A stretch of DNA of 64,000 bases. Source: Alviniconcha marisindica. Taxonomy: Eukaryota > Mollusca > Gastropoda > Provannidae. Both the position numbers and the translations under genes were made by a program. The notes under the pieces were generated by a model. The model was not told the origin of the DNA. It made no database searches and saw only the letters and a list, made by a program, of their open reading frames with translations. Positions 9,219 to 31,770 of this stretch are shown here, piece after piece (within the stretch, counting starts at the first letter, position 1; every line of letters begins with the position of its first letter). The stretch spans positions 401,001 to 465,000 of the forward strand of contig JABMCL010001896.1 in the NCBI GenBank assembly GCA_018857735.1. The letters are read 5' to 3'.

Positions 9219-9358
9219 ACATCGTCCCCGTCACCCTGAGCCGTGTGAAGGATCAGTCAAACAGTTCAACATGATTCGCATAAACCTTTTTGTGATCCTG
9301 ATTATTTTTGCTGCTGTCGCAAACCTTTGCAGCGCCGCAGAAAATGAGACTGCGTCCG
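9219..9358 (+). CDS. Micro-exon gene: exon with 5' UTR and signal peptide
   Basis: Acceptor 'cccattccag' ends at 9218. A UTR of 52 nt precedes ATG 9271, and coding runs to 9358 at the donor 'gtaagtgc'. The 29 complete codons start MIRIN, followed by a hydrophobic core of about 14 residues (FVILIIFAAVANL) and a likely signal-peptidase site after CSA. The mature start is AENETAS, with an NET sequon. The exon ends with one base (G) of the next codon, so the intron is phase 1. Because an acceptor precedes it, an untranslated first exon should lie upstream; I could not place it. Confidence 0.8.
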
Positions 9359-9934
9359 GTAAGTGCTTTCTCTTTTGTGCTGATAATTTATTCTTTTTGT
9401 AGCATATATTAGCAAAGACTGGCTGCTGCCTTGGTCCAAATAGACCTAATGCTACTAAATACTGCTCTACTGTGAGCGATTTACTTTAGTGAAAATCTGA
9501 GTACGGAATGACGAGTGTCCCCCCCCCCCCTCCCCGCCCCCAGCCCCTAGCCTTTCCTTTCGAGTAAATTAATATTGCTCTACAGTCTGTGGCGATTTAC
9601 TTCAGTGAAAATCTGATCGTGGGATGGTGATCGCACCGCTCATATTCTCTGACAGGAAAAGGGTTAAAAGTTATTGTGCTTTTTTCTTTTGTTTTGAATA
9701 AGTTTCTGACTGTTGGTAATCATCGGAACTGTTTCACATTTCGACAAGAAAATAATGTAGAGGTAATAATTATTCACTTTCAGGCTGCAACAAAACTTTA
9801 AGGTTGGTTTAGTTCTAGAGTGTTATTTAACCAACACGCTTCAAACTTTCCATAATGATGAATGATAATGCCTGTTGTGAAGCTAGATCTAAACTTTACC
9901 GTGTAAAATAATCACTCTAATTGTTTGTTTCCAG

Positions 9935-9952
9935 GTAACGACACCAGTGCAA
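9935..9952 (+). CDS. Micro-exon, 18 nt
   Basis: Flanked by 'ttgtttgtttccag' and the donor 'gtgagtatt'. With the carried-over G it encodes Gly-Asn-Asp-Thr-Ser-Ala and leaves one base (A), so it is symmetric phase 1. NDT is an N-glycosylation sequon. Confidence 0.75.
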
Positions 9953-10261
9953 GTGAGTATTCTCTCTCATTAGAAGGCGTTCCAGAAAGATACTTTACCA
10001 ATTCTTTGTGCTGGCATTGTGTTACTGTAGAATTGTACTGGCGTGTCGTGTTACGGTGTGAACATGCATGTACTGTGATTCTTATGGGGAGTTTGTGTCA
10101 GAAAGATTTCTTTCGTGAACGTTTTACCCAGATAGAAAGAGGGTTCGCGTTAACTGGGAATTTTAACGGCGAAGTCAGCATGTGCACACACACCTACCTC
10201 GACACACACGCACACATACACACGCGCACACACACACGCGCACGCTCAAACACGTACACGT

Positions 10262-11240
10262 TCGGTCCGATGATTCTGGATGCAGTAGATGCTGTGTGAC
10301 TCTGTCTGAGTCAGCTTCTTGGCGCTGTGTTACCGGCAGACCTGGTTGAACAGCACAATGCTCTCCACCACCGACCGGTAAAAATGGTGAAGGAGCCGGC
10401 TGCTGACAAGGAACTGCTTCTGTTTCCGCAGGAAGAACACCCGCTGACTCACTCTCTTGCAGCATGCGTCCACGTTCGTAGTCCGCTACAGCCTGTCGTC
10501 AGTCACTGTTCCCAGGTACTTACTGGGACACGATGCTGACCTGGCCCTTGATGATGAGTGGGTGTGGTGAAGGCTTGCTGACGGAAGTCAATGACCGGCT
10601 CTGCTGTCTTGGTCACGTTAAGCTCCAGGATGTTTTGGTCACACCATCGCACCAACTCATCCACTGCAGATCTGTACGTCGCTTCGTCAGCCCAGAGAAA
10701 TCCCGACAGCGACGTGTCGTCAGCAAACTTAATCTGCAGGACAGAGTCGCTCGAGGGTCTGCCGTCTGCAGTGTAGATTGTGAAGAGGATGGGAGACGGC
10801 ACGCACCCTTGTGGAGCACCTGTTTTGGTGATCTTAACGTCTGATAGAGTGTTGCCCACCCTCACATTCTGCCGCCTAGCCTGTCTGTTAAAATCTAGGC
10901 AGTGATGGTTGGGTTGACTGCCTGATCAAGCAGCTTGTCAAACAGTAGGTTAGATGCGTCTGTATGGCATTGAAGGCCCTGGAGAAGTCCACAAAGAGGA
11001 GTCTAACGCAAGTGCCGGGTTTCTCGAGGTGTTGGTAGACTCTGTGGAACTTTGTCAGGATGGCGTCGTCTGGTGTTCTACGTACGGCAGAGGGTCATGG
11101 TGGGCTGCCTTCTGGAGTCACAGTTCCTTAAGCACGACCCTCTCTGCGCACTTGAATGGGACAGCAATCGAAGCTACTGGCCTGTAGTCGTTCAGCTGGC
11201 TGGGAGATCTCTTCTTGGGGACTCACGACGCGGATGATTC
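10262..11240 (-). mobile_element. Non-LTR retrotransposon reverse-transcriptase fragment
   Basis: Minus-strand frames, with several frameshifts, read in order: 'NDYRPVASIAV' near 11190, 'CVRLLFVDFSRAFNAIQT' near 10985, 'GAPQGCVPSPILFTIYT' near 10800, and the catalytic 'FADDTSLSG' near 10700. A C-terminal part follows with 'LYRSVVES'-like wording in another frame, down to a CA-rich tract at 10180-10262. The order is that of an RT domain. The absence of an endonuclease and the broken frame mark it as a dead 5'-truncated insertion. It sits in the intron between the micro-exons at 9935 and 12676. The clade is uncertain. Confidence 0.85.
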
Positions 11241-11649
11241 ACATCCACACATACAAGGCTGCCACCTGTACAGCTCGCTGAGCTTTACTTTTTTATTATG
11301 GTTCTCACTTTATATATACTTCATTAGTATTTTTGTTATTACGTCCCAACTTGTCAGTGGCTCTGATTGGTTGAAAGGGATTGTTCGTTCAGGCTTCGGC
11401 GTCTTTGGAAAAAATCATCAACACAAATTTCTATTCATAGTTTGCGTCGCGTGTAGTTAATATTTTTGATGTAGTTTAGGGTCTAAAGGTCAGGTACAGC
11501 TTCAAACTGCTCGTCTAGGGCTCGTGTTAACCGGTAATTCAAGGTATTTTACCGGTTAAAATCAGCATATACCTGGGAAGGGGGGGGGGGGGGGGAGAGG
11601 AATCATTAGCAATCTGTCAGACACAGCCTGGCTGTTTGTTTGACTGGGT

Positions 11650-12310
11650 CTAAAATATAAATTTAAAAAATGTAAATTAAAAAAGGCACACACAGAGAGC
11701 GTGTGCTGTGTGTGTGTGTTCTAGACGGCGAAGGGAGCAAGGTGTCTTCTGCTGGTAGAGCTCAAGTAGTGGCATAGACAGCCGTGGATCTGACCACTTA
11801 CTGCGATTGTTTGACCTGTTTCCGTGAACTGATTTCAATAAAAAATAAAATAAAATAAAATAATTTATTTTTTAAACAGACAAGGAGAATAACAAAAAGC
11901 CGTAGCTGTTCCCAATATCTGGATGGGACTGGCCTGCAAAGGGGTCCGAGCTATAGAACCTTTTAATTTTATAAAATACTTTATTTTTATTTATTTATTT
12001 ATTTTTAAGGCAGAAAGAGGGAGAGGACGCGCGCGTGTGTGTGTGTGTGTGTGTGTGTGTGTGTGTGTGTGTGTGTGTGTGGTGTGTGTGTGTGTGTGTG
12101 TGTTTGATATAAAATCAGTTCACGGAAAAGAGTCAGTTTCTGTAACCGGTCAGAACCACGGCGGCCATCTATACCACTACTAGAGCTCTACCAGCAGAAA
12201 ACACAGTGCTCCCTTCCCCGTCTAGAACACATACACACACACCACCACATCACACGCACTCTCTTTCTCCCTCTGCCTTTTTAACATTTATTTATAATTT
12301 AATTTTTAAT
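11650..12310. repeat. Inverted pair of SINE-like repeats around a GT array
   Basis: The 'ctagacggcgaagggagcaa ... ccgtgaactgattt' block at 11721-11835 is the reverse complement of 'aaatcagttcacgg ... ccgtctag' at 12112-12225. The match continues into the A/T-rich flanks. A third copy in the 12112 orientation, reversed, lies at 18850-18935. The arms enclose (GT)n at 12031-12105. In RNA they could fold into a long hairpin. Confidence 0.8.
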
Positions 12311-30700: not shown

Positions 30701-30755
30701 CTCCACTATAATCCAGTGTCCATGCTATAATGATTCTTCCGTTTTCTTTTTTCAG

Positions 30756-30779
30756 CGAAAAGCCAAGCCATTTACTCCG
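30756..30779 (+). CDS. Micro-exon, 24 nt
   Basis: Flanked by 'ttccgttttcttttttcag' and the donor 'gtaagtgc', the same donor as the signal-peptide exon. Split codon ending CG, then Lys-Ser-Gln-Ala-Ile-Tyr-Ser, leaving G. Symmetric phase 1. Confidence 0.8.
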
Positions 30780-31317
30780 GTAAGTGCACGACTGACCTGA
30801 CATTTTGTGCGTAATATACATTTGTGAAAAGAATTATGCATGTGTGCGTGCGTGTGTGGGTGTGTGTGCGCATGCATGTGTGTGTGTGTTTTGTCTATGG
30901 GTTCTTTGTATAATGATGAAACTACCATATATAACTTGATTAGGGGAAACAGGGGGTGAACGGTATATTGTAAAGGATCGATGCATGTTGTTTCGAAAAC
31001 AAAAACAAATGTTGTTTCGAAAACAAAAACAAACTATTTTCTTCTGTTACCTGTACGTAAAACTGAGCCCCGTGTGTTCTGTCAGTGACAGCAGACACTG
31101 GGGTGATGTCGAACCGAACTGCAGGACTGACTGAGTGAAAAGAAGCATCAGTGATGCTGACAACTTATCAAAAATCAAATCAGCGGTAGCTGGTGTGTTT
31201 TTTGTTTTTCGTTTTGTTACTACATATGCTCTTTTTCATCCCTTCCAAGCGCTCGACGAGTTATTTTCGATTCGCGTCTGAGAAGAATAGTTCCTATAGC
31301 ATACTCTTTCGCAATGA

Positions 31318-31556
31318 TTAACCCATTCGCTGCCCCCAGGACGTCATATGACGTCACTGAAAAAATGTCTTCTGTGTACTTCTAGGACGTCGTAATTAAG
31401 ACTTCATGCTTGACTAGTTTAAGTTTTCACATATTCTCACGCCATACAAAGTTCCTCAAGCAGATATTTTAGTCTGTTCAGCCTTTTCTGGAGAGTGATC
31501 TCGGGAGGAAACTGCACCAGTGATACAGTTTGTCGTGTCGGCAGTGAAAGGGTTAA
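31318..31556. mobile_element. piggyBac-type MITE, 239 bp
   Basis: The ends are 'ttaacccattcgctgcc' and, in reverse complement, 'ttaaccctttcactgcc' (15 of 17 match). TTAA at both borders is the expected target-site duplication. There is no coding capacity. It lies in the last intron of the micro-exon gene. Confidence 0.85.
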
Positions 31557-31699
31557 ATCAGCTCTCACAACCTGAAACAGAACGCCCGAAACGACTGAGC
31601 AATCCACTCACTCCTTTCTGTGGCGTATATATATATTTCCTTTTAAGGTGAGTATTGGGCATTCACAGTTTTTTGTTTTGTTTTGGTGTGTGTTTTCAG

Positions 31700-31770
31700 G
31701 TGGACTACCTTCGTATCCATTTGTTGTTGTAGCTGCGATCCTCGCTGCTGTGCTGGTTGTCATCGGATAG
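31700..31770 (+). CDS. Micro-exon gene: last coding exon, hydrophobic C-terminus
   Basis: Acceptor 'tgtgtgttttcag' ends at 31699. In phase 1 it reads Gly-Gly-Leu-Pro-Ser-Tyr-Pro-Phe, then about 15 hydrophobic residues (VVVAAILAAVLVVIG), and stops at TAG 31768-31770. The tail ends directly at the stop with no cytoplasmic residues. Small residues (Ser-Gly-Gly) precede a short spacer. This is the pattern of a GPI-anchor attachment signal; a single-pass membrane anchor is the alternative. The phase fits all upstream exons. Confidence 0.75.

Follow-up and report, generated by a model that had tools for sequence, protein, structure and literature searches.

A putative animal gene of micro-exon architecture with duplicated exon cassettes and a predicted GPI-anchored product

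The locus described here raises the question of whether a chain of tiny exons, strung between a signal-peptide exon and a hydrophobic terminal exon, is a gene at all and, if it is, of what kind. The layout is best known from parasitic flatworms; here it appears in an animal gene in which several of the tiny in-frame exons look like copies of one another. It is quite probable that the window (the whole 64,000-nt stretch of DNA that was analysed) carries a genuine animal gene of micro-exon architecture, with cassette-duplicated exons, making a small GPI-anchored and probably glycosylated surface peptide.

The exon chain and its distinction from chance

All 11 coding exons claimed by a sequence-only reading of this DNA were recovered where they had been placed (Table 1), with every junction in phase 1. 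The joined coding sequence, also as claimed, is 315 nt long and translates into 104 amino acids plus a stop, with 0 internal stops. By translation, exon 1 comprises a 52-nt 5′UTR followed by an ATG at 9271; one intron of the gene is about 7 kb long. Because every micro-exon is divisible by three (3n) and lies in phase 1, any one of them can be added, lost or skipped with the frame kept.

Table 1. Predicted exons and dead cassette copies; coordinates are those of the window
Feature	Positions	Strand	Length (nt)	Splice signals and remarks
Exon 1	9219..9358	+		acceptor 12.3 bits, donor 11.0 bits; ends in phase 1
Micro-exon m1	9935..9952	+	18	splice score 18.3; 3n, open in phase 1; sequon NDT
Micro-exon m2	12676..12693	+	18	splice score 23.5
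Micro-exon m3	16108..16122	+	15	splice score 22.8
Dead cassette	16520..16530	+	11	strong acceptor, donor lost (ttaaat)
Dead cassette	17656..17666	+	11	"exon" identical to the 16520 copy, donor lost likewise
Micro-exon m4	18212..18223	+	12	splice score 21.4; weak donor gtaatt
Micro-exon m5	18781..18792	+	12	splice score 23.7
Micro-exon m6 (tentative)	21468..21491	+	24	splice score 14.1
Micro-exon m7	22610..22633	+	24	splice score 18.2
Micro-exon m8 (tentative)	23494..23502	+	9	splice score 14.7; without clear cassette homology
Micro-exon m9	30756..30779	+	24	splice score 24.8, best in the window
Last coding exon	31700..31770	+		acceptor 8.0

The DNA was scanned for AG-exon-GT pairs enclosing exons of 6–30 nt, with each acceptor graded by its best pair, a cut-off of at least 18 and splice matrices of approximate values. 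On the plus strand between 9359 and 31699, all acceptors at this cut-off (7/7) delimit a 3n exon with an open phase-1 reading; on the minus strand of this interval a single acceptor reaches the cut-off, and it is not open. In 200 shuffles by 100-nt blocks the mean was 0.45 acceptors (0.14 open) and the maximum 4 (2 open), a comparison in which the splice scores are not independent, since duplicated cassettes share splice signals. No acceptor of this grade was found on either strand in 1–9200 and 32000–58000, and the plus strand of 58000–64000, a tandem-repeat array, has four (one open). When the window's 274 plus-strand pairs are ranked, the top five places all go to claimed exons. Eight acceptors score at least 12.5 in 9000–33000, namely those of five claimed micro-exons, of the two dead cassettes and of one site upstream (9042). 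At a cut-off of at least 14, nine open acceptors were seen against a shuffle mean of 1.3. The chain, with its uniform phase, is beyond chance.

On splice score, seven micro-exons are well supported, m1 and m7 barely clearing the cut-off, and m6 and m8, which are singly no better than background, are tentative. The claim that nine micro-exons exceed chance stands for seven (7/7 against 0.14 by shuffle) and is tentative for these two. Taken one by one, m4, m6 and m8 are each doubtful. The surroundings of m4 are homopolymer-rich and look degraded, and the stretch may be poorly assembled; for m6, the donor position that matches the sister cassettes in the alignment is gtattt at 21502, with which the exon would be 34 nt long and frame-breaking. 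Further candidates were rejected: 27139–27156 (18 nt, 16.7) failed the phase-1 open test, 14677–14701 and 21522–21538 are not 3n, and the high-scoring pairs at 58.5–59.7 kb derive from the tandem repeat. Among larger exons of 31–300 nt between the bookend exons, 23 pairs scored at least 18.5; two were open in any frame, and neither was 3n.

Probable cassette duplication and dead copies

Five of the micro-exons (m2, m3, m4, m5 and m7), the two dead cassettes and perhaps m6 appear to be products of tandem duplication. Between the duplicates the intron flanks are recognisably homologous and the exons are not. Homology is found between the flanks of m2 and m3 (z 13.7 downstream, 8.9 upstream) and those of m4 and m5 (z 22.2 and 14.4); the downstream flank of m3 is homologous to those of m2, m7 (z 5.7) and the 16520 cassette (z 5.1), and that of m5 to those of m4 and the 16520 cassette. 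Upstream, clear homology is confined to m2/m3, m4/m5 and, less so, m2/m6 (z 4.8); m7 and m3 are not homologous on this side (z 1.8), and two of the four upstream flanks in a MAFFT comparison are just 26/60 identical. An HMM built from four cassettes had no match at E ≤ 10 beyond 12.6–22.7 kb.

The cassette exons that have a donor measure 18, 15, 12, 12 and 24 (and, with m6, 24) nt, all 3n, and the sole non-3n length, 11 nt, is confined to the two donor-lost copies; of the 13 gaps in the alignments of the flanks, 4 have a length divisible by three. The 16520 copy sits within a near-identical copy of 17574–17975 adjoining inverted repeats, and this duplicated stretch is possibly an assembly artefact. 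Exon alignments were no better than shuffles in 8/8 cassette pairs. In a control on six pairs, flank stretches of the same length reached P ≤ 0.05 in 11/18 tests downstream and 5/18 upstream, or in 7/12 and 1/12 once the splice-consensus stretches (offset 0) were removed; as the upstream 1/12 means that homology barely shows at such a length, the control is informative for the downstream side alone. This lends modest support to a divergence of the exons faster than that of their flanks.

The duplicates would have arisen by tandem copying of a cassette of about 200 nt, consisting of a polypyrimidine tract, the exon, the donor and about 100 nt of intron, in part accompanied by a dispersed repeat, a probable mobile element. 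It seems that the locus catches this process under way, with live and dead copies of the cassette alongside a dispersed repeat in one array.

The predicted peptide and its anchor

Exon 1 would provide the signal peptide and the last exon a GPI-attachment signal, while most of the mature peptide would come from the symmetric phase-1 micro-exons between them, of which there are about seven to nine. Translation of exon 1 gives the signal peptide and the start of the mature peptide, MIRINLFVILIIFAAVANLCSA/AENETASG, including the sequon NET, with the slash marking the putative cleavage site. The predicted mature peptide is cysteine-free, rich in Ser, Thr, Glu and Ala, and carries two N-glycosylation sequons (NET and NDT); the micro-exons code about 52 of its 59 residues (~88%).

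The end of m9 and the last exon together give S-G-G (from S81), the spacer LPSYPF, the hydrophobic VVVAAILAAVLVVIG and the stop. Small omega residues, a spacer and a hydrophobic C-terminus at the stop, judged by a rule of thumb, make the last exon look like a signal for GPI attachment; the product is therefore probably tethered as a GPI-anchored glycopeptide and not freely secreted, its anchor and glycosylation being what we infer from the translation. The earlier proposal of a secreted peptide with a hydrophobic tail is borne out by hydropathy for the tail and the N-terminus, and is less well supported on "secreted", as a GPI-attachment signal is the better match for the tail. That the tail is instead a transmembrane anchor is unlikely: it does contain about 15–16 hydrophobic residues, but this stretch is short for a membrane span, stops at the stop codon without a basic cytoplasmic residue and is preceded by S-G-G and a short spacer.

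A protein search with the 104-aa product at E ≤ 1 had a sole match, P0001, from a second assembly, in which all residues coded wholly by the last exon (22/22) are identical. The adjoining intron has diverged in P0001, with read-through stretches 41/58, 36/67 and 38/62 identical; at these rates 22/22 would have P of ~1e-6 to 5e-4. In this comparison the last exon is conserved. Within 2 kb past the stop there is no AATAAA or ATTAAA, the first lying at 33985.

Micro-exon gene class and alternative readings

In PMC7653826, micro-exon genes (MEGs) are defined operationally by 3n micro-exons shorter than 70 nt, at least seven exons, at least half of them micro, and a run of at least four consecutive ones. 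The predicted gene has micro-exons of 9–24 nt (9/9 divisible by three) and 11 coding exons, nine of them micro in a run of nine; with the seven strong micro-exons alone it has nine exons, seven micro, in a run of seven, still within that definition. By the same definition, it resembles tapeworm MEGs (Hymenolepis, Echinococcus) in architecture, with the same points of difference as those given below for schistosome MEGs. The micro-exon gene architecture predicted from the sequence is well supported. What had been proposed as MEG-like retains its signal-peptide exon, symmetric micro-exon run and separate terminal exon, and gains cassette tandem duplication, with "secreted", "variable" and "convergent" as its tentative parts.

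Schistosome MEGs share a signal-peptide exon and a middle of symmetric 3n micro-exons of 6–36 nt, and hydropathy agrees with their signal peptide and secreted or membrane-anchored product; MEGs 14, 29 and 32 are membrane-anchored, as is predicted here. About 80% of their coding region lies in symmetric 6–36 bp exons (PMC5825161), whereas the micro-exons here make up 50% (156/315 nt). The closest is MEG-8, whose products have a signal peptide, a Thr/Ser/Pro-rich disordered middle and a hydrophobic C-terminus (PMC4671649), the middle being predicted as disordered and O-glycosylated and the C-terminus conserved. In MEG-3 an exon duplication is linked to a mobile element, and here a dispersed repeat would be tied to part of the cassette copying. 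Unlike schistosome MEGs, the locus has a GPI-type tail, one intron of ~7 kb and an apparently non-flatworm source.

Resemblances extend beyond flatworms. CD52/CD24-type GPI-anchored glycopeptides likewise combine a signal peptide, a very short Ser/Thr-rich mature peptide and a GPI signal, but have few exons and are not known to contain a chain of micro-exons. Venom and conotoxin genes, cysteine-rich and with conserved introns and fast exons, share the divergence of exons beyond the flanking introns between duplicates; they duplicate as whole genes, whereas here single micro-exon cassettes are copied inside one gene.

A chance origin, with splice-like motifs in polypyrimidine-rich introns and a true gene of two bookend exons or nothing, would suit the two of nine micro-exons at background level; it is very improbable given the 7/7 strong acceptors with a 3n exon open in phase 1, where 0.14 were expected, the cassette homology and the conserved last exon. 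Far more plausible, and only a little short of an even chance, is a real but ordinary gene for a mucin-like or GPI-anchored peptide, with constitutive splicing that always includes the small phase-1 stalk exons and yields no variants. Small symmetric stalk exons are common among extracellular proteins, and scores of at least 18 in 7/9 micro-exons fit constitutive inclusion, but the weak donors (18212, 21468), the dead cassettes and the exons diverged beside conserved downstream flanks suggest exon turnover, which by itself does not demonstrate alternative splicing.

Membership of the known flatworm class, with a flatworm source, agrees with the definition of PMC7653826 and with the likeness to MEG-8 products (PMC4671649), yet it is improbable: the 40/63 identity of a NAXE last exon to AI-BP chain 2dg2 suggests a slowly evolving lineage, and the 43% GC and dispersed repeats are molluscan in look, evidence that is not decisive. 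Tentatively, the locus may represent an independent non-flatworm system of micro-exon variation, perhaps in a snail, in which cassettes are copied, their exons diversify within a preserved splice context, and a GPI-anchored surface peptide has its glycosylated stalk varied through optional exon inclusion; this is possible and, on balance, rather doubtful. Such inclusion would give up to 2^7–2^9 putative in-frame combinations, with both the skipping in mRNA and the biological role being matters that we infer.

In 2015 MEGs were said in PMC4350168 to "appear to be restricted to platyhelminths"; the same architecture outside flatworms, if true, would demonstrate that evolution can arrive at this design more than once. 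Exons so small are difficult for gene finders according to PMC7653826, so similar genes may sit unannotated elsewhere.

Searches for exon 1 found no homologue. Matches in Pfam, NCBIfam and PDB all stayed below the cut-off, the best Pfam match (18.9 bits against 31) being rejected. No second copy of the bookend exons was found in the window: at E ≤ 0.01 the exons matched nothing but themselves at the nucleotide level, and none of the protein matches was convincing. Of the possible relatives in viral contigs, 17 stretches fitted a pattern and 0 were confirmed; one repeat pattern had 0 matches in viral contigs, and its shorter form 0 in bacterial and archaeal genomes. Searches for tRNAs and, at the gathering score, for Rfam families were negative. 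The GC content is 43%, and the NAXE last exon, at 60835–61035, shares its 40 identical residues of 63 with a solved chain.

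Exon chain and chance expectation

The positions that the sequence-only reading had assigned to eleven coding exons were borne out exactly: when joined, the exons give 315 nt, encoding 104 residues and a stop, with phase 1 at every junction. The chance test scored all AG-exon-GT pairs of 6-30 nt independently of that earlier exon choice, on the basis of approximate splice matrices. In the scan of the whole window, the claimed exons occupy the five best places among 274 + strand pairs. On the + strand between the bookends (the signal-peptide exon 1 and the last coding exon), all seven acceptors whose best pair scored at least 18 have an exon divisible by three and open in phase 1. 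Shuffles of 100-nt blocks (n = 200) yielded a mean of 0.45 acceptors at this threshold (maximum 4) and 0.14 open ones (maximum 2), and the minus strand between the bookends contains one acceptor, with none open. Outside the gene (1-9200 and 32000-64000 scanned), only four acceptors reached 18, one of them open; all are on the + strand at 58-64 kb and coincide with a tandem-repeat array, where scan scores are inflated because the 51-nt units carry splice-like pairs.

The claim of nine supported micro-exons holds for seven of them, which score at least 18, but not for those at 21468 (14.1) and 23494 (14.7), which on score alone are indistinguishable from background. The scores of the exons at 9935 and 22610 barely exceed the threshold. 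It is likely that the locus is a real gene with a micro-exon architecture.

A scan for longer exons gave no sign of a larger gene: among the 23 pairs of 31-300 nt with a splice score of at least 18.5 between the bookends, none was both open and divisible by three, and two were open in any frame. The acceptors scoring at least 12.5 in 9000-33000 (n = 8) comprise five of claimed micro-exons, two of dead cassettes and one at 9042, upstream of exon 1 and perhaps in the 5' leader. At 31626-31653, 52 nt before the last exon, a pyrimidine stretch ends in AAG and runs straight into the donor gtgagt, which is strong at 11.9 bits. It looks like a zero-length exon or an unused donor.

Cassette duplication and exon divergence

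The intron flanks of micro-exons m2 (12676) and m3 (16108) are alike (z 13.7 downstream, 8.9 upstream), as are those of m4 (18212) and m5 (18781) (22.2 and 14.4). Values for m3 and m7 (22610) are 5.7 downstream and 1.8 upstream, and for m2 and m6 (21468) 4.8 upstream and 0.3 downstream. The downstream flank of the dead, donor-less copy at 16520 gives z 30.1 with m4, 27.2 with m5 and 5.1 with m3. No clear flank kinship to the cassettes was found for m1, m8, m9 and exon 1, the top values of 4.2 (exon 1/m5) and 3.7 (m8/m9) being taken for low-complexity matches. With a stricter aligner, flank identities range from 43/55 and 60/81 (m2/m3) down to 26/60 (2/4 upstream flanks). A repeat is common to the units at 16520, 17656, 18212 and 18781 and recurs at 21693.

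Cassette exons with a donor measure 18, 15, 12, 12, 24 and 24 nt, whereas the sole length not divisible by three, 11 nt, is confined to the two donor-less copies. This provides within-locus evidence for coding constraint, a contrast that comprises few independent events, the two dead copies being near-identical to each other. Gaps in the flank alignments are multiples of three in 4 of 13 cases, the rate expected without a frame.

Exon alignments of all eight cassette pairs were no better than those of shuffled exons (P 0.13-0.94). In a control of six pairs, 11 of the 18 tests on downstream flank stretches of the same length reached P ≤ 0.05 (7/12 without the donor itself). This is weakly consistent, at such short lengths, with exons that may change faster than their downstream flanks. 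The upstream stretches of the six pairs reached it in 5/18 (1/12 without the acceptor itself) and provide no contrast with the exons.

The stretch 16438-16840 (within 16314-16871) is a nearly perfect copy of 17574-17975; the two differ by one base in length near 16568 and by one mismatch at 16838. Two inverted repeats (36 and 34 nt) adjoin it, and a 107-nt run, 98% G, lies between the copies at 17421-17527. The duplicated stretch may be a fold-back rearrangement or an assembly artefact.

Predicted product and a relative

The predicted product has a hydrophobic N-terminus. The mature peptide predicted from it, 59 aa long (residues 23-81), contains 10 Ser, 9 Thr, 8 Glu and 9 Ala, lacks Cys and has two sequons, at N25 and N31. 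The tail reads S-G-G / LPSYPF / VVVAAILAAVLVVIG-stop, which matches the textbook GPI signal layout. Since the tail follows this layout, the product is read as a GPI-anchored glycopeptide; judged from sequence, the anchor is probably of the GPI type. Searches of Pfam, NCBIfam and PDB with the product gave no match that passed a cut-off.

A protein search with the 104-residue product gave one match at E ≤ 1 (24 candidates), P0001 (158 residues), which comes from a 30,319-base ENA contig. P0001 is an open frame extending through the last intron and into the last coding exon, and the comparison covers these two parts. Its intron part aligns piecewise with 31314-31699; the pieces overlap and contain gaps and stops (41/58, 36/67 and 38/62 identical residues). 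In the last exon, all 22 wholly exon-coded residues are identical; the two preceding residues, S and G, overlap the acceptor. Under the flank rate of change, 22/22 identity has a P of ~1e-6 to 5e-4. Of the two bookends proposed as markers for related genomes, one, the last exon, was recovered; exon 1 had no candidate. The residues FPFKVS, encoded at 31626-31653, are retained in P0001.

Comparison with micro-exon genes and neighbouring features

The locus falls within the operational micro-exon gene (MEG) definition of PMC7653826. According to PMC5825161, symmetric exons of 6-36 bp make up about 80% of the coding sequence of schistosome MEGs; the exon size is shared here, but the coding fraction is not (156/315 nt). 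The predicted product is similar to the MEG-8 products outlined in PMC4671649, whose middle is described as disordered and O-glycosylated and whose hydrophobic C-terminus is conserved. The repeat-carrying cassette units recall an exon duplication in MEG-3 that PMC4350168 links to a mobile element; according to that paper, MEGs appear to be limited to platyhelminths. A literature search for such a gene in molluscs revealed none evident among the matches listed, and we do not claim that it is unreported. In layout, the locus resembles a MEG and is a candidate member only. A variant-generating micro-exon system outside flatworms is possible. The source is taken to be an animal and, given its dispersed repeats, probably a gastropod mollusc; any convergence with flatworm MEGs would hinge on this origin.

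Other features of the window
Feature	Position	Strand	Remarks
Integrase core fragment (1800-2165) and adjoining ORF	1155-2165	minus	rve; probably an LTR retrotransposon remnant
Minisatellite arrays, dense	37824-42794 and 52995-60073		periods 18 to ~300 nt; G/C strongly strand-biased in some
C2H2 zinc-finger ORF, 274 aa	45108-45932	minus	Pfam zf-C2H2
Reverse transcriptase ORF, then second ORF	46586-48442	+	RVT_1, presumably non-LTR type; second ORF without Pfam match
ORF upstream of zinc-finger ORF	49249-49803	minus	no Pfam match; may be the N-terminal exon of the zinc-finger ORF
51-nt tandem array	58537-59768		units with paired splice-like acceptors and donors, spaced mostly 15-24 nt
NAXE (NAD(P)HX epimerase / AI-BP) C-terminal last exon, intact	60835-61035	+	40/63 residues identical to solved AI-BP chain 2dg2
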